Positions 24,902 to 34,697 of a stretch of DNA of 64,000 bases are shown piece after piece. Location: the NCBI RefSeq assembly GCF_011046895.1, contig NZ_CP049250.1:1345501-1409500 (forward strand), written 5' to 3'. The stretch comes from Rhizobium rhizoryzae. Lineage in GTDB: Bacteria > Pseudomonadota > Alphaproteobacteria > Rhizobiales > Rhizobiaceae. The notes beneath the pieces are model-generated. The model saw only the letters and a program-made list of their open reading frames with translations, did not search any database and was not told where the DNA came from. The position numbers and the translations under genes are program-made. How positions within the stretch are numbered: position 1 is the stretch's first letter; every line of letters starts with the position of its first letter.

Positions 24902-26311
24902 TCACACAATCCGATACGGCACGATCGAACGGTTGTCGTGATCGACCGTCAGCCTGCTTTTGAGCGGGGGCATGGCCCTTTGCGGGCAGTTGTGGCGCTC
25001 GCAGATGCGGCAGGATATGCCGATGGGCTCGAAGGCGGCGCGGCTGTCGAGATCCAGATCGTCCGCATAGACGAAGCTGTCCGCATAGGAAATCTCGCAG
25101 CCCAGAGCCAACGCATAGCGTGGCTGCACGGCGCGAAAGCCGCCGCTGCCCTTGGTAATCTGGGTGGCGAGACAGAGGTATCGCACCCCGTCAGGCGTTT
25201 CCGCCAGTTGCCGGATAATGCGGCTTGGCATCTCGAAAGCCTGATGCACATTCCATAAGGGGCAGGCGGCACCGAAGCGGGCGAACTGAAGCTTGGCGGC
25301 GCTGTGGCGCTTGGTGATGTTTCCTGCCCGATCCACCCGTGCGAAGAAAATGGGAATGCCCTTCTGCCCCGGTCTTTGCAGCGTGCTCAACCGGTGGCAG
25401 ATCTGTTCCAGGCTCGCGCCGAAATGGGCGGAGAGCAGGTCGAGATCATGGCGCAGGTCGCGGGCGCGTTTCAGGAAGCTTTCGTAGGGGAGAAGAAGGG
25501 CGCCGGCGAAATAGTTCTGTAAGCCAATGCGACAGATTTCCACCGCTTCGGTTGTCCGAAAACCGGCCTCGCGGGCGGCGCGATCAATGGGTTCTGCGGC
25601 GAAAAGCTGGGCAATCTGAAGCGCCATCTGGAAATCGCGAGTGGCGGGCGTCGCATAGGCGTTCAGCGAGAGACGACGGGAGGCTGGATCGAAGCTGCGG
25701 ATGAGTTCATCCTTCAGGGAGGTGCGCTCTACGCGCACACCAAAACGGTTGAGCAGAAAGTGCTGCAAGGCCGAGTGGTTGTCCCCGCCGCCAAGGCCGA
25801 TCTCGGCCGCCAGACGCTCGGCCAGGATATCCAGTTCGTGAATGTAGTTGTCCACGAAATGGAAGTAGTCGCGCACCTCGTCGTAAGGTGTGGTCTCGCT
25901 CAGCGCCGCGCGACCCAGCCGGTCATCCATGCTGGCCAGTTGTTCGCTAGAACGGCGATAGGCCTGATGCGCGGCAATCAGCGCATGGGCAATGGCAGGT
26001 GCGTTCTGCGTCACCAGCTTCAGATCCTGCAGGCTGCCCGTGTAGCCTTCAAACAACGGATCGGAGAGGGCTTCAGACAAGGCGGAAAGAAGACGGTCCC
26101 CTTCGCCGGAAGAGAGATCAGCAATGCTGACACCGAATTTTTCCGCCAGCGCCAGCAGAACGGCAGCGGATACGGGACGCTGGTTGTTCTCAATCTGGTT
26201 CAGGTAGCTGGTCGAGATCCCGAGCCGTTCTGCGAACTGGCTTTGTGTGGCACGGGCCGCCTCCCGCACATCCCGAACTTTTCGACCGATATAGAGCTTG
26301 CCAATCGCCAT
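24902..26311 (-). CDS. Short-chain fatty acyl-CoA transcriptional regulator (ScfR family, PccR-like)
   Basis: At 469 residues it has an N-terminal XRE helix-turn-helix (residues ~8-62, TQSQFAERLGISTSYLNQIE), a middle IrrE/ImmA-like peptidase-related domain, and the C-terminal ScfR domain with the conserved cysteine motif CRICERHNCPQRA near residue 440. The family includes RamB, PrpR/MccR and PccR, which sense short-chain acyl-CoA. PccR of Rhodobacter controls pccB. Divergent placement 131 bp from pccB makes it the likely regulator of propionyl-CoA assimilation here. The start MAIGKLYIGRKVR is chosen since the frame upstream crosses the promoter region. Confidence 0.9.
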   Translation of the reverse strand: MAIGKLYIGRKVRDVREAARATQSQFAERLGISTSYLNQIENNQRPVSAAVLLALAEKFGVSIADLSSGEGDRLLSALSEALSDPLFEGYTGSLQDLKLVTQNAPAIAHALIAAHQAYRRSSEQLASMDDRLGRAALSETTPYDEVRDYFHFVDNYIHELDILAERLAAEIGLGGGDNHSALQHFLLNRFGVRVERTSLKDELIRSFDPASRRLSLNAYATPATRDFQMALQIAQLFAAEPIDRAAREAGFRTTEAVEICRIGLQNYFAGALLLPYESFLKRARDLRHDLDLLSAHFGASLEQICHRLSTLQRPGQKGIPIFFARVDRAGNITKRHSAAKLQFARFGAACPLWNVHQAFEMPSRIIRQLAETPDGVRYLCLATQITKGSGGFRAVQPRYALALGCEISYADSFVYADDLDLDSRAAFEPIGISCRICERHNCPQRAMPPLKSRLTVDHDNRSIVPYRIV

Positions 26312-26314
26312 GAG

Positions 26315-26344
26315 TTTGCAACTTCGCAAAATGCAGTTTGCATA
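26315..26344. promoter_or_regulatory. Cluster of TTTGCAAA-like half-sites in the regulator/pccB divergent region
   Basis: Three octamers resemble TTTGCAAA: TTTGCAAC at 26315, TTCGCAAA at 26323 and TTTGCATA at 26337. TTTGCAAA-type sites are bound by ScfR-family regulators such as RamB and PccR. They lie just upstream of the regulator's start codon, so autoregulation together with control of pccB is plausible. The spacing differs from a simple two-site repeat. Confidence 0.5.
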
Positions 26345-26442
26345 TTTATAGATTACACATTGCCACCTCTTCAACCAAAATCCATGTTTCGCCTGCATGG
26401 TCAACGCGATACAAGAGCAAGACAAATTCAGGGGAGGCATCA

Positions 26443-27975
26443 TTGCGCGCAGTTTTGAGCGAAGTGGAAGCACGGCGGGCAGAGGCACGCCTTGGTGGCG
26501 GCCAGAAGCGCATCGACGCGCAGCACGCCAAGGGGAAGCTGACGGCGCGCGAGCGTATCGAGGTGTTGCTTGATGAAGGCTCCTTCGAAGAATACGATAT
26601 GTATGTCACGCATCGTTGCGTCGATTTCGGCATGGAAAGCCAAAAGGTAGCCGGCGATGGCGTCGTTACCGGCTGGGGCACGATCAACGGTCGGCAGGTC
26701 TACGTTTTCTCCCAGGATTTTACCGTTCTTGGCGGATCGCTGTCTGAAACCCATGCGCAAAAGATCTGCAAGATCATGGATATGGCGGTTCGTGTCGGCG
26801 CGCCGGTCATCGGCCTGAATGATTCGGGTGGTGCCCGCATTCAGGAAGGCGTGGCGTCGCTGGCCGGTTACGCGGAAGTCTTCCGCCGCAATGCGGAGGC
26901 CTCTGGTGTCATTCCGCAGATCTCGGTCATCATGGGGCCTTGCGCGGGTGGCGCTGTTTATTCGCCTGCCATGACGGATTTCATCTTCATGGTGCGCGAT
27001 AGCTCCTACATGTTCGTCACCGGCCCCGATGTGGTAAAAACGGTCACGAACGAAATCGTGACGGCGGAAGAGCTGGGCGGCGCTTCCACCCATACGAAGA
27101 AGTCTTCCGTGGCCGATGCGGCCTATGAAAACGATATCGAGACGCTGGAAGCAGTACGCCAGCTGTTCGATTTTCTGCCGCTCAACAATCGCGAAAAGCC
27201 GCCGGTGCGTCCCTTCTTCGATGATCCGGCGCGAGTGGAAATGCGGCTCGATAGCCTGATCCCGGATTCGCCTACCAAGCCTTACGACATGAAGGAACTC
27301 ATCTACGCGATTGCTGATGAGGGTGACTTCTTTGAAATTCAGGAAGCCTTTGCAAAGAACATCGTCACCGGCTTCATCCGTCTGGAAGGACAGACGGTGG
27401 GCGTCGTCGCCAACCAGCCAATGGTGCTGGCGGGCTGCCTCGATATCGATGCCTCGCGTAAGGCAGCGCGTTTCGTGCGCTTTTGCGATGCTTTCTCGAT
27501 CCCGATCCTGACGCTGGTGGATGTGCCGGGCTTCCTGCCGGGTGTGGCGCAAGAATATGGCGGCGTGATCAAGCACGGCGCAAAGCTGCTGTTTGCCTAT
27601 TCGGAAGCCACCGTGCCGATGGTGACCCTGATTACCCGCAAGGCCTATGGCGGTGCCTATGACGTGATGGCTTCCAAGCACATTGGCGCTGACGTGAACT
27701 ATGCCTGGCCGAGTGCGGAAATTGCCGTCATGGGAGCCAAAGGGGCAACCGAAATTCTCTATCGTTCCGAGCTTGGCGATGCGGACAAGATCGCGGCACG
27801 CACCAAGGAATATGAGGAGCGGTTTGCCAATCCCTTCGTGGCGGCGGAAAGGGGCTTCATCGATGAGGTCATCATGCCGCATTCGTCGCGCCGCCGCATT
27901 GCGCGGGCTTTCGCCTCTCTGCGCAACAAGCAGATTACCACCCATTGGAAAAAGCACGACACGATCCCGCTTTGA
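26443..27975 (+). CDS. pccB: Propionyl-CoA carboxylase beta chain (carboxyltransferase) PccB
   Basis: The 510-residue carboxyltransferase subunit moves CO2 from biotin on PccA to propionyl-CoA, giving methylmalonyl-CoA. Visible are the [25 protein letters not shown]-terminus, the acyl-CoA site GGARIQEG and the biotin-side motif [17 protein letters not shown]. The start is a TTG ([12 protein letters not shown]...), chosen because GGGGAGG precedes it by five bases and because it gives the family length of 510. The only upstream in-frame starts run into the regulatory region. It heads a gene set that includes pccA. Confidence 0.95.
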
Positions 27976-28064: not shown

Positions 28065-28958
28065 ATGAGTGATTCCAAATTTCCGCCGGAAAAGAACCTG
28101 CCAGCCGGCTATGAACCGCCCAAGGTCTGGACCTGGGAGCCTGGCAATGGTGGCGCCTTTGCCAGCACCAATCGACCCATCGCCGGGTCCACGCATGAGC
28201 AAGAACTGAAGGTCGGCAAGCATCCGCTGCAGCTTTACTCACTGGGCACACCCAACGGCCAGAAGGTTACGATCCTGCTGGAAGAACTGCTGGAAGCGGG
28301 TCACGCGGTTGCCGAATACGATGCCTGGCTCATCAATATCGGCAAGGGCGATCAGTTCGGTTCCGGCTTTGTTGGTGTCAATCCGAATTCCAAGATCCCG
28401 GCTTTGATGGATCATCAGCCGACGGGCGGTGGTGAGCCTGTGCGCTTGTTCGAATCCGGCTCCATTCTCGTCTATCTGGCGGAAAAGTTTAGCGCGTTTC
28501 TGCCCGGCGATCTGCGGGCCCGTGCCGAGGCCATGAACTGGCTGTTCTGGCAGATGGGTTCAGCGCCTTTCGTCGGCGGCGGTTTCGGCCACTTCTTTGC
28601 CTACGCGCCGATGAAAATCCAGTACGCCATCGATCGCTACGCCATGGAGACCAAGCGCCAGCTGGATGTGCTGAACCGGCAGTTGGCCGAGAATGAGTTC
28701 GTTGGCGGTCGCGAATACACCATTGCCGATATGGCGATCTGGCCCTGGTATGGTCGCCTTGCACTGGATTCCTCCTATCCGAATGCAGGCGAATTCCTGT
28801 CAACCGCTGAATACGAACATGTGGTGCGCTGGGCCAAGCAGTTGGCGGCGCGTCCCGGTGTCAAGCGCGGCGGCATCGTCAACAAGGCCTCGGGCGATCC
28901 GGGTTCCTTCCTGCCTGAGCGTCACGATGCGTCCGACTTCAACGGTCTGAACGTCTGA
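28065..28958 (+). CDS. yghU: Glutathione S-transferase family protein, YghU-like disulfide-bond oxidoreductase
   Basis: A 297-residue member of the Nu-class GST/YghU group. A family-specific N-terminal extension (PPAGYEPPKVWTWEPGNGG-like) is followed by a thioredoxin-fold domain (LYSLGTPNGQKVTILLEE) with the glutathione-binding ESGSILVYLAEKF, and an all-alpha C-terminal domain. YghU reduces disulfides using two glutathione molecules. It lies 89 bases after pccB on the same strand, before the two small paralogues and pccA. Its link to propionate metabolism is unclear and may be chance. Confidence 0.88.
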   Translation: MSDSKFPPEKNLPAGYEPPKVWTWEPGNGGAFASTNRPIAGSTHEQELKVGKHPLQLYSLGTPNGQKVTILLEELLEAGHAVAEYDAWLINIGKGDQFGSGFVGVNPNSKIPALMDHQPTGGGEPVRLFESGSILVYLAEKFSAFLPGDLRARAEAMNWLFWQMGSAPFVGGGFGHFFAYAPMKIQYAIDRYAMETKRQLDVLNRQLAENEFVGGREYTIADMAIWPWYGRLALDSSYPNAGEFLSTAEYEHVVRWAKQLAARPGVKRGGIVNKASGDPGSFLPERHDASDFNGLNV

Positions 28959-29031: not shown

Positions 29032-29409
29032 GTGGCCAACCTGCCGGAAATGACGAAACACCGAGGCTTTCCAGGAGGAATGCCGGGCACCGGCGTGCAG
29101 TTCACCATTCGTCGTGCCAACCCGAAGGGCGTGACACCGCTCAAGGCTATTCCACGCAAGGCCCGTCCCGGCACCAAGGAACACCGCATCGATGCGGCCT
29201 TCCTGCATGCACTGTGGCATCATTTCGGCGACCAGCCATTTGAGCGCGGCAATCTGGATGCCGCCCGCCTCAGCCTGCTGTTCGGGCGCGAAGTGGTGCC
29301 TGTCGACAAGGATTTCGATCCGCAATCCTACGAGGCGCTGCTGCAGATCAATGAACGCGTAGCGCGTCAGAATTTCCCTGAATCCTTCGAAGATGTGTTT
29401 GAGGTCTAG
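29032..29409 (+). CDS. Uncharacterised small protein, first of two tandem paralogues in the pcc locus
   Basis: I do not recognise this family. The 125-residue product starts at GTG after a GGAGA site, has no signal peptide or membrane segment, and is slightly basic. It shares the framework HRGFP.G.PGT, RRAN.K.VT, PFERGNLD..RL..LFGREVV, FDP.SY.ALL.IN, AR.NFP..FED with the next gene, at roughly half identity. It ends four bases before the start of that gene, which in turn ends four bases before pccA. This packing suggests co-translation with pccA. No catalytic or metal-binding motif is obvious. Confidence 0.75.
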   Translation: MANLPEMTKHRGFPGGMPGTGVQFTIRRANPKGVTPLKAIPRKARPGTKEHRIDAAFLHALWHHFGDQPFERGNLDAARLSLLFGREVVPVDKDFDPQSYEALLQINERVARQNFPESFEDVFEV

Positions 29410-29413
29410 AGCC

Positions 29414-29788
29414 ATGGCCAAGACCCCTGAAATGCCAAAGCATCGCGGTTTTCCGCTGGGGCTTCCCGGAACCCAGTGGCAGTACACACTGCGCCGCGCC
29501 AATTCCAAGGTGACCAAACTCACGGCCATGCCGCGCCATCGTACCATGGACCAGACAGTGGCTCTGGCGGATGCCGGTTTCCTGCAAGCGCTGTGGCAGT
29601 TTTTCGGAGCGGAACCCTTCGAGCGCGGCAATCTGGATGGCGAGCGGCTTGGCCGTCTGTTCGGACGGGAAGTGGTTGCCGCAGAACGCGGCTTCGATCC
29701 CTCATCCTATACGGCGCTGTTGAAGATCAACGAGGCCGCCGCGCGGAAAAATTTCCCGAGTGCTTTTGAAGATTTAGGTCAGGGGTGA
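29414..29788 (+). CDS. Uncharacterised small protein, second of two tandem paralogues in the pcc locus
   Basis: A 124-residue product, MAKTPEMPKHRGFP..., homologous to the preceding gene across its length. The most conserved segment is PFERGNLD-x3-RL-x2-LFGREVV, near residues 70-90. A variable linker after RRAN differs in charge between the copies. The gene is separated by four bases from both neighbours, the paralogue and pccA. Possible roles include a carboxylase accessory or assembly protein, by analogy with the small extra subunits of some actinobacterial acyl-CoA carboxylases, but there is no sequence similarity to support that. Confidence 0.78.
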   Translation: MAKTPEMPKHRGFPLGLPGTQWQYTLRRANSKVTKLTAMPRHRTMDQTVALADAGFLQALWQFFGAEPFERGNLDGERLGRLFGREVVAAERGFDPSSYTALLKINEAAARKNFPSAFEDLGQG

Positions 29789-29792
29789 CACG

Positions 29793-31805
29793 ATGCCGAT
29801 CCAGAAAATCCTGATTGCCAACAGAGGCGAAATCGCTTGCCGCGTCATTCGCACGGCGAAGAAAATGGGCATCAAGACGGTCGCCGTCTATTCGGATGCC
29901 GATTCGAATGCGCTGCATGTGCGTGAGGCCGATGAAGCGGTGCATATCGGTCCGGCACCGTCGTCGCAGTCCTATATCGTCATCGACAAGATTATGGATG
30001 CAATCCGCCAGACCGGTGCCGATGCCGTGCATCCCGGTTACGGCTTCCTGTCGGAAAATCCGCTGTTTGCAGAGGCGCTGGAGAAGGAAGGCGTAACCTT
30101 CATTGGCCCACCGGTCGGTGCCATTCAGGCCATGGGTGACAAGATCACCTCGAAGAAGATTGCAGCTGAAGCAGGCGTTTCTACCGTTCCCGGCCATATG
30201 GGGCTGATTTCCGATGCGGATGAGGCGGTGAAGATTTCCGCAGCCATCGGTTATCCGGTCATGATCAAGGCCTCTGCTGGAGGTGGCGGTAAAGGCATGC
30301 GCATTGCCTGGAACGATGCGGAAGCCCGTGAAGGCTTCCAGTCTTCCAAGAACGAGGCGAAAAGCTCGTTTGGCGACGACCGCATCTTCATCGAGAAATT
30401 CGTCACCGAACCACGCCATATCGAGATCCAGGTGCTGGGCGACAAGCACGGTAACTGCCTTTATCTGGGTGAGCGCGAATGCTCCATCCAGCGCCGTAAC
30501 CAGAAGGTTATCGAGGAGGCTCCGTCGCCGTTCCTCACACCTGAGACCCGTCGCGCCATGGGCGAACAGGCCGTGGCTTTGGCGAAAGCTGTCGGTTACC
30601 ACTCGGCAGGTACGGTGGAATTCATCGTCGATGGCAAGGCCAACAAGTTCTACTTCCTCGAGATGAACACCCGTTTGCAGGTGGAGCATCCGGTGACCGA
30701 ACTCGTCACCGGCATCGACCTTGTGGAACAGATGATCCGCGTTGCCTCGGGCGAAAAGCTGGCGCTCGCTCAGGACGACGTGAAGCTGAACGGCTGGGCC
30801 ATCGAAAGCCGCCTATATGCGGAAGATCCGTTCCGCAACTTTCTGCCCTCCATTGGCCGTCTCAGCCGTTACCGCCCGCCTGTCGAGGGTGAGCAGGCTG
30901 AGGGCACGGTGGTGCGCAACGATACCGGCGTCTATGAGGGCGGCGAGATCTCGATGTATTACGATCCCATGATCGCCAAGCTTTGCACCTGGGGTGAGAC
31001 CCGCGAGGTGGCAATCGATGCCATGCAGGCGGCGCTCAATGATTTCGAGGTGGAAGGCATCGGTCATAACCTGCCCTTCCTCTCTGCCGTCATGGGGCAG
31101 GAGCGCTTTCGTTCCGGCAAGCTGACGACAGCCTATATCGCGGAGGAATTTCCCGATGGCTTTTCCGGTGTCACGCCGGATGCCGCCGCTTCGCAGAAAC
31201 TGGCCGCCATTGCTGCTGTCATCAATGCCCATGTGCAGAGCCGTGCGGCGCAGATTTCCGGCACCATCGGCAACCATGCCCGCAAGGTGGGCAAGGACTG
31301 GGTGGTGCAGCTGGGCGATGTCAGCCATGCCGTTTCGCTTTCAAGCGGTGCGGATGCGCAGGTCGTCACGTTCAACGAAGGTGGCGAAAGCGTCACGGTC
31401 GCCGGTTCCTGGCATCCGGGCCAGACGCACGCGCATTTCCTGCTGAACGGGCAAAAGCTGGGCGTGAAGGTGGATCTCGTCGGATCTGCTATCCGCCTGC
31501 GCGCCAACGGCATGGATGTGTCGGCGCGTGTGCGTAGCCCACGTGTGGCGGAACTGGCAAAGCTTATGCCGGTCAAGCTGCCGCCGGATACCTCGAAGAT
31601 GCTGCTCTGCCCCATGCCGGGCGTCATTACCGGCGTCGCGGTGAAGGTGGGTGACACGGTGGAAGCCGGTCAGACGCTCGCCACCGTCGAAGCCATGAAG
31701 ATGGAAAACGTGCTGAAAGCCGAGCGTCGTGGCGTGGTGAAGCGTGTTGCCGCCAGTGCCGGTCAGAGCTTGGCGGTGGACGAACTGATCATGGAGTTCG
31801 AGTAA
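29793..31805 (+). CDS. pccA: Propionyl-CoA carboxylase alpha chain (biotin carboxylase and biotin carrier) PccA
   Basis: A 670-residue protein with a biotin carboxylase domain (residues ~1-450; ATP-grasp glycine loop KASAGGGGKGMRIAW, and FLEMNTRLQVEHPVTE), a linking BT domain, and a C-terminal biotinyl domain with the acceptor lysine in VEAMKMENVLKAE near residue 635. It carboxylates biotin with ATP and bicarbonate and partners PccB. Propionyl-CoA comes from odd-chain fatty acids, valine, isoleucine and propionate. The 753 bp after it, before the mutase gene, hold a toxin-antitoxin pair in the opposite direction. Confidence 0.96.
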   Translation: MPIQKILIANRGEIACRVIRTAKKMGIKTVAVYSDADSNALHVREADEAVHIGPAPSSQSYIVIDKIMDAIRQTGADAVHPGYGFLSENPLFAEALEKEGVTFIGPPVGAIQAMGDKITSKKIAAEAGVSTVPGHMGLISDADEAVKISAAIGYPVMIKASAGGGGKGMRIAWNDAEAREGFQSSKNEAKSSFGDDRIFIEKFVTEPRHIEIQVLGDKHGNCLYLGERECSIQRRNQKVIEEAPSPFLTPETRRAMGEQAVALAKAVGYHSAGTVEFIVDGKANKFYFLEMNTRLQVEHPVTELVTGIDLVEQMIRVASGEKLALAQDDVKLNGWAIESRLYAEDPFRNFLPSIGRLSRYRPPVEGEQAEGTVVRNDTGVYEGGEISMYYDPMIAKLCTWGETREVAIDAMQAALNDFEVEGIGHNLPFLSAVMGQERFRSGKLTTAYIAEEFPDGFSGVTPDAAASQKLAAIAAVINAHVQSRAAQISGTIGNHARKVGKDWVVQLGDVSHAVSLSSGADAQVVTFNEGGESVTVAGSWHPGQTHAHFLLNGQKLGVKVDLVGSAIRLRANGMDVSARVRSPRVAELAKLMPVKLPPDTSKMLLCPMPGVITGVAVKVGDTVEAGQTLATVEAMKMENVLKAERRGVVKRVAASAGQSLAVDELIMEFE

Positions 31806-31833: not shown

Positions 31834-32193
31834 TCAAGCGTCGCCGAACGTTTTGCCAAGCCGTTTGAGGATGTGCTTCTCGTGGTCTTGGCCACGGAAA
31901 AATACCGCCAAGACCTTCACTTCCTGCCTTGCTTCATCGACTTTAAAATAGAAAATCGTGCGATTCTTGGTCACCTGTCGCAATCCAGGCGAAATCTGAT
32001 GCCGCAGACTCCCCTGGTGCGGAGCACGAACAAGCGCCAGCATATCACTGTCTATAGCTTTCAAGCGCGCTGCAGCACGCTCAACGGCGTCGTGCAAGTC
32101 ATCTCCGAGAGAGAGATAGGACTCGACAAGATGCTCGAAAATCAGGTTGAGGTCTTGGTCCGCTGCAGGGGCCCGGAACAGCTCAAAAACCAT
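31834..32193 (-). CDS. parE: ParE/RelE-superfamily toxin
   Basis: A 119-residue protein starting MVFELFRAPAADQDL, matching the RelE/ParE toxin fold (LIFEHL, RLKAI, the central GLRQVTKNRTIFYFKV strand pair, VLAVFFRGQDHEKHI). ParE toxins poison DNA gyrase; RelE relatives cut mRNA on the ribosome. Which applies cannot be told from sequence, though the ParD-type partner favours ParE. Its start overlaps the antitoxin gene by 11 bases. A start eight residues upstream is possible but lies deeper in the antitoxin frame. Confidence 0.85.
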   Translation of the reverse strand: MVFELFRAPAADQDLNLIFEHLVESYLSLGDDLHDAVERAAARLKAIDSDMLALVRAPHQGSLRHQISPGLRQVTKNRTIFYFKVDEARQEVKVLAVFFRGQDHEKHILKRLGKTFGDA

Positions 32194-32452
32194 ATTCTGC
32201 TTTCTTGCGTGCAATCAACGCATCAATACGGCGGCTGCTTTCCTCCGCATTCAAGAAAGGCCCCTTGCTTCTCTCTTCGATTAGTTCCCGCAGAGCCGCC
32301 AATTCCGCTTCCTTCATCTCCGTCTGCTCGCGCAGCAGCTCCAGCCCCTGCTGCACTACGGCGCTCACGCTTGAATAGCGGCCTTCTTCAACCAGTCGGC
32401 GGGCAAAGGCGTCTTGCTGGTCGGAAATGGATACGGATGCTTTTACGGTCAT
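32183..32452 (-). CDS. parD: ParD-family antitoxin
   Basis: An 89-residue type II antitoxin. The N-terminus is a ribbon-helix-helix DNA-binding domain (MTVKASVSISDQQDAFARRLVEEGRYSSVSAVVQQGLELL-type pattern); the charged C-terminal half wraps the toxin. The family normally represses its own promoter, and a palindrome lies in the predicted promoter just upstream. The pair runs against the flanking propionate genes and probably entered the locus as a unit. Confidence 0.87.
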   Translation of the reverse strand: MTVKASVSISDQQDAFARRLVEEGRYSSVSAVVQQGLELLREQTEMKEAELAALRELIEERSKGPFLNAEESSRRIDALIARKKAEYGF

Positions 32453-32558: not shown

Positions 32559-34697
32559 ATGAGCAAGAAAACCGTTGCCGACTGGCAGGTGCTGGCCGAG
32601 AAGGAACTAAAAGCATCACCGGACAAGCTCATCTGGAACACGCCGGAAGGCATTCCGGTGAAGCCGCTCTACACGGCGGAAGATCTTGACGGCGTCGAGC
32701 ATCTGGAAAGCCTGCCGGGCTTCAAACCCTTCGTGCGCGGTCCTCGCGCCACCATGTATGCGGGGCGCCCCTGGACGATCCGCCAATATGCGGGCTTTTC
32801 GACCGCTGAGGAAAGCAATGCGTTTTATCGCAAGGCGTTGGCCGCCGGTCAGCAGGGTGTGTCCGTCGCCTTCGATCTCGCCACCCATCGCGGTTACGAT
32901 TCCGACCATCCGCGTGTGGTCGGCGATGTCGGCAAGGCGGGCGTAGCGATCGACTCGGTCGAGGATATGAAGATCCTGTTCAATGGCATTCCCTTGCAGG
33001 ATATCTCCGTTTCCATGACCATGAACGGCGCGGTCATTCCGATCCTCGCGAACTTCATCGTGACGGGGGAGGAGCAGGGCGTTTCGCGGGATCTTCTCTC
33101 GGGCACCATTCAGAACGATATTCTGAAGGAGTTCATGGTTCGCAACACCTACATCTATCCGCCGGAGCCTTCCATGCGGATCATTGCGGATATCATCGCC
33201 TATACGGCCAAGGAAATGCCGCGCTTCAACTCCATCTCGATTTCCGGCTATCACATGCAGGAAGCGGGCGCGACGCTGGTGCAGGAGTTAGCCTTCACGC
33301 TGGCGGATGGTCGGGAATATGTACGGGCCGCTCTGGCACGTGGCCTGAACGTCGATGAATTTGCCGGGCGCCTGTCCTTCTTCTTCGCGATCGGCATGAA
33401 CTTCTTCATGGAAGCAGCAAAGCTTCGCGCTGCGCGCCTGCTTTGGTCGCGCATCATGGAAGAGTTCGAGCCCAAGAAGCCCGGCTCGCTGATGCTGCGC
33501 ACCCACTGTCAGACCTCGGGCGTCTCGCTTCAGGAGCAGGACCCATATAATAACGTCATCCGTACGGCCTATGAGGCGCTGTCGGCGGTGCTGGGCGGCA
33601 CGCAGTCTCTCCATACCAACGCGCTGGATGAGGCGATTGCCCTGCCGACGGAATTTTCAGCGCGCATTGCCCGCAACACGCAGCTTATCCTTCAGCATGA
33701 AACGGGTGTGACCAAGGTGGTCGATCCGCTGGCGGGCTCCTATTACGTCGAGAGCCTGACCAAGGAACTGGCAGACAAGGCCTGGGCGCTGATCGAAGAG
33801 GTCGAGGCCCTGGGCGGCATGACCAAGGCTGTGGCTGATGGTCTTCCCAAGCGCTTGATCGAGGAGGCGGCAACCCGGCGGCAGGCGCGTGTGGATCGTG
33901 GCGAGGAGATCATCGTCGGCGTCAACAAGTACCGGCTGGAGAATGAAGAGCCGATCGATATTCTCGACATCGACAACACCGCTGTCCGCAATTCGCAGAT
34001 CAAGCGGCTGGAGCAGATCCGCCGCCAACGCGATCCGAAACGCGTTGAGGAAGCACTGGCAGCGCTGACCAAGGTCGCTGAAACCGGAGAGGGCAATCTC
34101 CTGGAGAAGGCGGTCGAGGCTGCCCGCGCCCGCGCAAGTGTCGGTGAAATTTCCGATGCCATGCGCGCCGTTTTCGGAGATCACTCTGCCGTGCCGGAAG
34201 TGGTGAGCGATATCTATGGTCCGGCCTATGCGGATGATCCCGAATATCAGACGCTGACCGGGCGTCTCTCGGAATTTGCCAAGGCAACGGGCATCAAGCC
34301 GAAGATGCTGGTCGCCAAGCTCGGTCAGGATGGCCATGATCGCGGTGCGAAGGTCATTGCCTCTGCATTCGGCGATATCGGCTTTCAGGTGATTGCCGGT
34401 CCGCTGTTCCAGACACCGGAAGAGGCGGCATCGCTTGCCGTATCCGAAAAGGTGCAAGTGGTCGGCATGTCATCGCTGGCGGCCGGTCACAAGACGCTGG
34501 CGCCGCAGCTCGTCGAGGCCTTGAAGGCGAAGGGGGCGGAAGAGGTGATTGTCGTGGTGGGCGGCGTCATTCCCCGGCAGGATTACCAGTTCCTGCTGGA
34601 TTCCGGCGTTGCTGCAGTCTTCGGTCCCGGCACCAATGTGCTGGATGCCGCCCGCGCCATTCTCGACCTGATGGAAGGGCGGCGGCGCAACGCCTGA
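32559..34697 (+). CDS. scpA: Methylmalonyl-CoA mutase, adenosylcobalamin-dependent
   Basis: A 712-residue single-chain mutase that converts methylmalonyl-CoA to succinyl-CoA and so joins propionate breakdown to the TCA cycle. The N-terminal TIM barrel begins with the substrate-binding region ([20 protein letters not shown]). The C-terminal B12 domain has [11 protein letters not shown] (the DxHxxG base-off motif, near residue 590), [11 protein letters not shown] and the VVVGGVIP segment. A GGAGG site precedes the start. The S. meliloti orthologue is called bhbA. Epimerase and the mutase chaperone are not in this window. Confidence 0.96.

Follow-up and report, generated by a model that had tools for sequence, protein, structure and literature searches.

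Two adjacent genes within the propionyl-CoA carboxylase (PCC) cluster of Rhizobium rhizoryzae, in the 64,000-nucleotide stretch of DNA analyzed here (the window), encode members of a family of small proteins that matched no known domain and whose genes lie mostly beside those for the two PCC subunits, pccB and pccA. Across the genomes sampled, the family appears to be near-universal in f74, a family taken to be the Rhodobacteraceae (NCBI's Paracoccaceae), patchy in the window's own family, the Rhizobiaceae, and hardly found elsewhere. The link to PCC is, as far as conserved gene order can indicate, well supported, and the proteins quite possibly serve as small accessory proteins of the PCC system or pathway.

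The gene pair and the pcc cluster of the window

On the forward strand, the order of genes was pccB, yghU, copy 1, copy 2, pccA, and mcm, with a ScfR-type regulator upstream on the reverse strand. The features of the cluster were as follows.

24902..26488, - strand: ScfR-type regulator (PccR/RamB group), divergent from pccB; Pfam PF09856 (ScfRs, 7.5e-67), with NCBIfam NF038139 under its cut-off
26338..27975, + strand: pccB, carboxyltransferase subunit, ORF as listed; Pfam PF01039, with PDB 3n6r_B aligned from residue 32
28065..28958, + strand: yghU, glutathione-dependent disulfide-bond oxidoreductase, between pccB and copy 1; NCBIfam NF008731 above cut-off
29032..29409, + strand: copy 1, GTG start, 125 aa; putative ancestral-type member
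29414..29788, + strand: copy 2, the duplicate; 124 aa counted from the ATG at 29414
29793..31805, + strand: pccA, biotin carboxylase/BT/BCCP subunit of propionyl-CoA carboxylase; Pfam PF00289, PF02786, PF02785, PF18140 (PCC_BT), and PF00364, with best PDB match 3n6r_A
31834-32452, - strand: ParD-type antitoxin (89 aa) and a ParE-like frame, between pccA and mcm; ParD above the TIGR02606 cut-off, the ParE-like frame below threshold
32559..34697, + strand: mcm (scpA), methylmalonyl-CoA mutase, downstream of pccA; NCBIfam NF006944 above cut-off

The true start of pccB probably lies some 30 codons downstream of the start of the listed ORF. The genome that holds the window (G000) is about 5.0 Mb in size and is near Rhizobium lemnae, in which copy 2 is 99% identical. 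ScfR look-alike genes were also seen by eye near pccB in three f74 loci (L074 to L076), as expected for PccR, and a ParD gene occupies the equivalent place in Agrobacterium vitis (L136, annotated) and in one further locus (L078, by eye).

Two adjacent, related genes of about 125 residues, joined to each other and to pccA by gaps of only four bases, had been described in an earlier note on this DNA, and that description was confirmed. Copy 1 ends at 29409 and copy 2 starts at 29414, copy 2 ends at 29788 and pccA starts at 29793, and the proteins of 125 and 124 aa are 58% identical over their full length. The shared sequence blocks that the note had listed are real, except that the first of them has two, not three, residues between PFERGNLD and RL. 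A longer ATG frame for copy 2 in the ORF listing, from 29393, would overlap copy 1. By eye, GGAG was found 7 nt 5' of the copy 1 GTG and GAGG 9 nt ahead of the copy 2 ATG, within the 3' end of copy 1.

Ratios of dN/dS against four relatives ranged from 0.015 to 0.076 for copy 1, 0.017 to 0.065 for copy 2, 0.047 to 0.139 for pccA, and 0.035 to 0.105 for yghU. The values for the copies were below that for pccA in seven of eight comparisons, the exception being copy 2 versus L006 (0.065 versus 0.061). Because these ratios are low and mostly below those of pccA, both copies are real, constrained genes, and purifying selection on the two is strong in the lineage of the window.

A scan with copy 2 as the query, a choice that favors copy 2 and hence loci with the pair, yielded 44 loci at one genome per species, all of them Rhizobiaceae or Rhizobiales by title. 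The pair and a pccB match were present in all 44 (copy 1 being broken in one, L041), and a pccA match was present within the DNA fetched in 41. The gap between copy 1 and copy 2 was 3 to 5 nt in 34 of the 44 loci, and 2 to 919 nt separated copy 2 from the beginning of the pccA match, with 8 nt or less in 9 of 41. Two details of the window, the tight spacing between copy 2 and pccA and the pair itself, fail to generalize. At L041 (Rhizobium sp. RCAM05350), where pccB was matched only in part and the matches to both copy 1 and mcm are interrupted, sequence error seems likelier than decay of the genes. The yghU gene stands in the pcc cluster in 39 of the 44 loci.

In a tree of 134 members, which rests on few columns and leaves many forks open, genes of the copy 2 type formed one clade (37 rows; SH-aLRT, 97), to which the lone copy of genome G094 was sister. 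Copy 1 grouped with the single-copy members (57 rows; SH-aLRT, 96), with the exception of copy 1 of Metarhizobium album. Since the copy 2 clade is single and copy 1 falls among single-copy members, a single old duplication most likely gave rise to copy 2, with copy 1 being of the ancestral type. In genome G094, a copy-2-type gene was the only member found, and its locus (L083) showed no pccA or yghU match within the 17 kb examined. The tandem arrangement is the least general part of the observation: the pair is a lineage trait, or local elaboration, and the family is the finding.

Distribution and location of the family

Genomes were searched with a profile built from both copies (A1) and with a broader profile (A2). 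Scores were computed only for the top candidates from an initial pass (for example, 29 of up to 68 per genome in the Rhizobiaceae sample), and some absences may be misses. With A1, a member was found in 49 of 151 Rhizobiaceae genomes, 47 of which had one match each; in 3 of 297 genomes of the order sample, namely, G000, G047 (the window's own genus), and the distant G275; and in 4 of 289 genomes of the class sample (G000 and three of f74). With A2, a member was found in 139 of 149 f74 genomes (one match each in 137), 14 of 249 genomes of the phylum sample (G000 and 13 of f74), and 3 of 186 genomes of a second class sample. Among 61 genomes of the family to which G275 belongs, A2 gave one strong and two weak partial matches. 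A stop codon fell inside the matched stretch in about 20 f74 matches; in the one that was traced (G594), it was the gene's own end.

Plasmid records with a match numbered 34 and were from Ensifer, Sinorhizobium, Rhizobium, Shinella, Agrobacterium, Neorhizobium, Paracoccus, Paroceanicella, and one "Roseateles." In the annotated plasmid records, the member was designated a hypothetical protein. The assignment of f74 to the Rhodobacteraceae was made because Paracoccus and Paroceanicella members share the f74 gene order and a Paracoccus row falls among the f74 rows in the tree. The member on NZ_CP084753.1, a plasmid named Roseateles sp. XES5, is 85% identical to copy 1 and ranked among Shinella records, and the organism name may be wrong.

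All 49 Rhizobiaceae genomes with a member contained pccA, versus 88 of 102 without one, and the gene was thus lacking from 88 of 137 pccA-bearing genomes of this family. This co-occurrence arises partly from reduced genomes, because 8 of the 14 genomes without pccA are 2.0 Mb or less in size. In f74, pccA was matched at an E value of 1e-220 or better in 134 of 139 genomes with a member and also in 8 of 10 without, so that its presence does not predict the gene there.

The surroundings of the gene were examined at 60 of the 139 f74 loci, 20 each from near the top, the middle, and the bottom of the score list. At 57 of the 60, the gene was accompanied by one or both of pccB and pccA in the same orientation and, within the reach of the stretch, followed pccB and preceded pccA; neither subunit gene was found within the stretch at L170, L189, or L209. 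With three first-found f74 loci and two plasmids added, 62 of 65 loci had the gene in a pcc cluster, and pccB, the gene, pccA, and mcm were complete in 55. Of the 49 member-bearing Rhizobiaceae genomes, 40 carry the gene no more than 1 kb upstream of pccA, in the same orientation. The earlier note had said that its proposal would fail if homologues lay mostly outside pcc loci; these counts place most of them inside. The distant G275 member, from another family of the order and 40% identical to copy 1, also sits between pccB and pccA.

The remaining arrangements in the Rhizobiaceae were few. In G113, the gene is inverted and 3 kb from pccA, with yghU next upstream in the gene's own orientation. 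Eight genomes (G009, G017, G020, G071, G075, G094, G106, and G120) carry the gene away from pccA. In seven of these, what comes next upstream, again in the same orientation, is yghU, at up to 190 nt in six and at 750 nt in G020. A second member was not found at the pcc loci of these eight genomes, and no member was near pccA in 30 inspected Rhizobiaceae genomes that have pccA and were scored as member-free.

On a PccA tree of 72 genomes, whose counts cannot give the root or separate gain from loss, the presence and absence of the gene required at least 13 changes, compared to a mean of 23.2 after shuffling. Three f74 PccA rows fell in an 11-row set (SH-aLRT, 97) whose other eight rows are of the window's family, six of them with the gene, and this placement suggests that the operon may have been transferred together with the gene.

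Of the 65 loci, 56 gave clear matches to both subunit genes, and the ORFs of these 56 were clustered. Two other small genes proved common between pccB and pccA in f74, one for a small glycine-zipper lipoprotein (42 of 56) and one for a secreted protein (48 of 56), both named by eye (L158 to L217). Profiles of the two, built without L074 to L076, recovered three of three and two of three of those held-out f74 loci, respectively, and matched nothing at an E value of 0.01 in 121 other loci (120 of the window's family). Of the three small genes, only the 125-aa gene is therefore common to both families. The f74 cluster accepts passengers without an obvious propionyl-CoA tie, and membership in it is by itself weak evidence.

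Sequence features and predicted structure

The earlier note knew of no family for these proteins and had named a known unrelated domain as evidence that would count against its proposal. None was found: neither copy had a credible match in Pfam, NCBIfam, or PHROGs, and fold comparison gave no convincing known fold. Pfam at E values up to 10 (with HMMER's filters) returned no epsilon-subunit family for P0001, P0002, and nine relatives, and Pfam and NCBIfam scans of the family's proteins contained no biotin carboxylase, biotinyl, or carboxyltransferase domain. A PDB profile search found no credible member chain beyond one doubtful match, to the R3H domain of SPAG7 (PDB 2cpm; E value, 0.02), which was taken as probably chance: the matched stretch misfits the predicted elements, helix 77-83 of the copy 1 model falls inside it, and no other chain stood among the matches listed. 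Three further candidates were set aside as sub-threshold or too weak for use: PF25660 (E value, 0.3; L073 only among the nine relatives), DUF2293 (E value, 0.0005; 20.5 bits versus a cut-off of 25; L133 only among the nine relatives), and GrpE for copy 1 in NCBIfam (E value, 0.18).

In the broad alignment, 16 columns show no variation, among them H10, D54, the R-G-N-L-D block (72-76), R79, R86-E87, and P116. Cysteine is absent from both copies, and the proteins of the family are probably soluble. The AlphaFold model of copy 1, from 61 rows, had a mean pLDDT of 91.6 and a pTM of 0.87 (the five models spanned 74.1 to 91.6), and that of copy 2, from 24 rows, had a pLDDT of 76.8 and the same elements minus a last short helix. 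A compact fold is thus predicted in a confident model, without a convincing known fold. Foldseek gave no significant match (best E values, 1.2 in the PDB and 0.2 in the viral set, BFVD). Phage or viral relatives were rejected on that BFVD value, with no PHROG for copy 1 or copy 2 and one weak row (E value, 0.035) for a relative. The best Z scores from a second structural aligner were at background level, 4.3 for copy 1 (3.8 A over 73 residues) and 3.8 for copy 2 (77 residues). Many of its rows are winged-helix proteins (MarR, ArsR, CzrA, Orc5, cullin, and FoxP3), and the weak likeness spans roughly the C-terminal 80 residues in both models. To such domains (MarR, ArsR, cullin, and VPS25) there was no sequence match, and the Z scores are too low for a shared fold to be claimed.

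This likeness bears on a reading in which the family would regulate the operon, as a small nucleic-acid-binding protein with a basic N-terminal arm and a winged-helix-like C-terminal part that acts with the divergent ScfR/PccR or on the pcc message. Residues 1 to 52 carry a net charge of +9 in copy 1 and +7 in copy 2, compared to -8 and -3 for the remainder; many structural rows for both models are winged-helix proteins; and a ScfR regulator stands beside the window's cluster. However, a best Z of 4.3 is common background, and no HTH family appeared in Pfam scans of the family's proteins. The known regulator of such operons, moreover, is PccR (PMC12632250), and a regulatory role is considered improbable.

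Candidate roles in propionyl-CoA metabolism

A role as a carboxylase accessory, assembly, or specificity factor had been proposed in the earlier note. The PCC link in that proposal is backed by synteny, whereas its assembly or specificity role is limited by the absences and the displaced copies. Under the accessory reading, the family protein would bind PCC (PccA or PccB), and binding would promote assembly, biotin loading, stability, or activity of the enzyme on induction of the operon. It would be a conditional helper and not a core or catalytic subunit, because many PCCs do without the gene. Copy 2 would derive from one duplication and would probably be made by coupled translation from the message of copy 1; the two copies may form a pair, or copy 2 may act under a second condition.

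The action envisaged would resemble that of the unrelated epsilon subunit of actinobacterial acyl-CoA carboxylases, the gene for which adjoins the carboxylase genes. The gene studied here likewise adjoins carboxylase subunit genes (57 of 60 f74 loci and 40 of 49 Rhizobiaceae genomes). In Haloferax mediterranei, an archaeon, a small extra gene of PCC, PccX, is reportedly needed for activity. The epsilon protein (AccE/PccE) is a small extra protein of the carboxylase complex with more than one per genome, and carboxylation is strongly dependent on the epsilon subunit AccE2 (PMC13118682). It comes from a different phylum, and the window's family has no Pfam epsilon match; the two are alike in kind, not in sequence. 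MeaB is an accessory factor in the same pathway, but its target is the mutase and not PCC, and it acts there as a chaperone for insertion of the cofactor (PMC12632250).

Against an essential subunit stand the 88 absences among 137 genomes, the PCC holoenzymes in the PDB without a family chain, and the eight displaced genes. The requirement for at least 13 changes on the PccA tree, together with those absences, indicates that PCC can work without the gene. The closest solved PCC holoenzyme to both window subunits, 3n6r, contains alpha and beta chains. It is reportedly a Ruegeria/Roseobacter enzyme that was active after production in E. coli, which would mean that activity in vitro does not need the gene. 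No PccA or PccB column clearly tracks the presence of the gene: the eight PccA columns with the highest raw scores are in or beside the BT domain (476-565), but shuffling, which was run for PccA only and did not remove kinship, brought mostly different columns to the top, scattered over the protein. In a check for a tie to the ethylmalonyl-CoA pathway, crotonyl-CoA carboxylase/reductase (TIGR01751) was matched in none of 151 genomes at a limit of 1e-150, a too strict limit. A stronger form of the accessory reading, in which the PCC of Rhodobacteraceae and many Rhizobiaceae would be a complex with a third subunit of an unrecognized family, missing from the alpha/beta holoenzyme structures and split in one Rhizobium lineage into two cotranslated nonidentical partners, is considered unlikely.

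The protein might instead act on a neighboring step (methylmalonyl-CoA mutase, the epimerase, or a bridge between PCC and the mutase) and not on PCC itself. The mcm gene follows in 56 of 65 scanned loci and in many Rhizobiaceae loci, and MeaB provides a precedent for a maturation factor in the pathway (PMC12632250). The gene sits between the PCC genes, however, not beside mcm, and the mutase is already served by MeaB; we rate this reading about as improbable as a regulatory role. A conserved passenger that rides with the operon, without a functional tie to propionyl-CoA, would fit the other f74 cluster genes that have no obvious tie and the absence of the gene from most pcc operons of the Rhizobiaceae. 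It is considered improbable nevertheless, since the gene has stayed between pccB and pccA in two families, and in one distant member as well, under strong purifying selection, which is more than co-transport would give. Also improbable is a partnership with YghU in thiol/disulfide or peroxide chemistry, in which the two genes would form a unit whose home is the pcc operon. In its favor, yghU accompanies copy 1 in 39 of the 44 related loci; it is next upstream in seven of eight displaced-gene genomes, in G113, and in an annotated Ensifer plasmid; and it is present in 45 of 49 genomes with the gene versus 35 of 102 without (not corrected for kinship). Against it, no yghU match above 150 bits occurred in 65 scanned loci (63 from f74 and two from plasmids), of which 62 carry the gene in a pcc cluster; several Rhizobiaceae loci have the gene and pcc without yghU; and the window's two proteins lack cysteine.

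RSP_2190, which we take to lie between pccB and pccA in Cereibacter sphaeroides, was the subject of no paper found in the literature searched. The papers listed there included no study of a family protein, and a text search of PMC9007349 gave no hit. The small genes between pccB and pccA were not mentioned in the parts of PMC12632250 that were examined. In Paracoccus denitrificans PD1222, pccA is Pden_3684 and pccB is Pden_3688 (PMC10370305), a numbering that leaves room for three genes between them. Streptactin purification of Dshi_1135-Strep from Dinoroseobacter shibae enriched PccA, PccB, and a conserved hypothetical protein, Dshi_1084 (PMC10890935, Table 2); the authors attribute the enrichment of the carboxylases to binding of biotin to the column (PMC10890935).

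PCC has a central place in how alphaproteobacteria such as C. sphaeroides assimilate propionate and, together with the ethylmalonyl-CoA pathway, acetate (PMC12632250). Transposon mutants of C. sphaeroides at these loci were propionate/bicarbonate negative; pcc mutants were only compromised on acetate, and mcm mutants were acetate negative (PMC12632250). Genes of such metabolism have been deleted or disrupted in Paracoccus and Cereibacter, which are organisms of laboratory use (PMC10370305 and PMC12632250). The genetics and structure of PCC are well studied, and a gene carried by 139 of the 149 genomes searched from one family, inside the pcc cluster at 57 of 60 loci and without a Pfam or NCBIfam model, is a clear gap.
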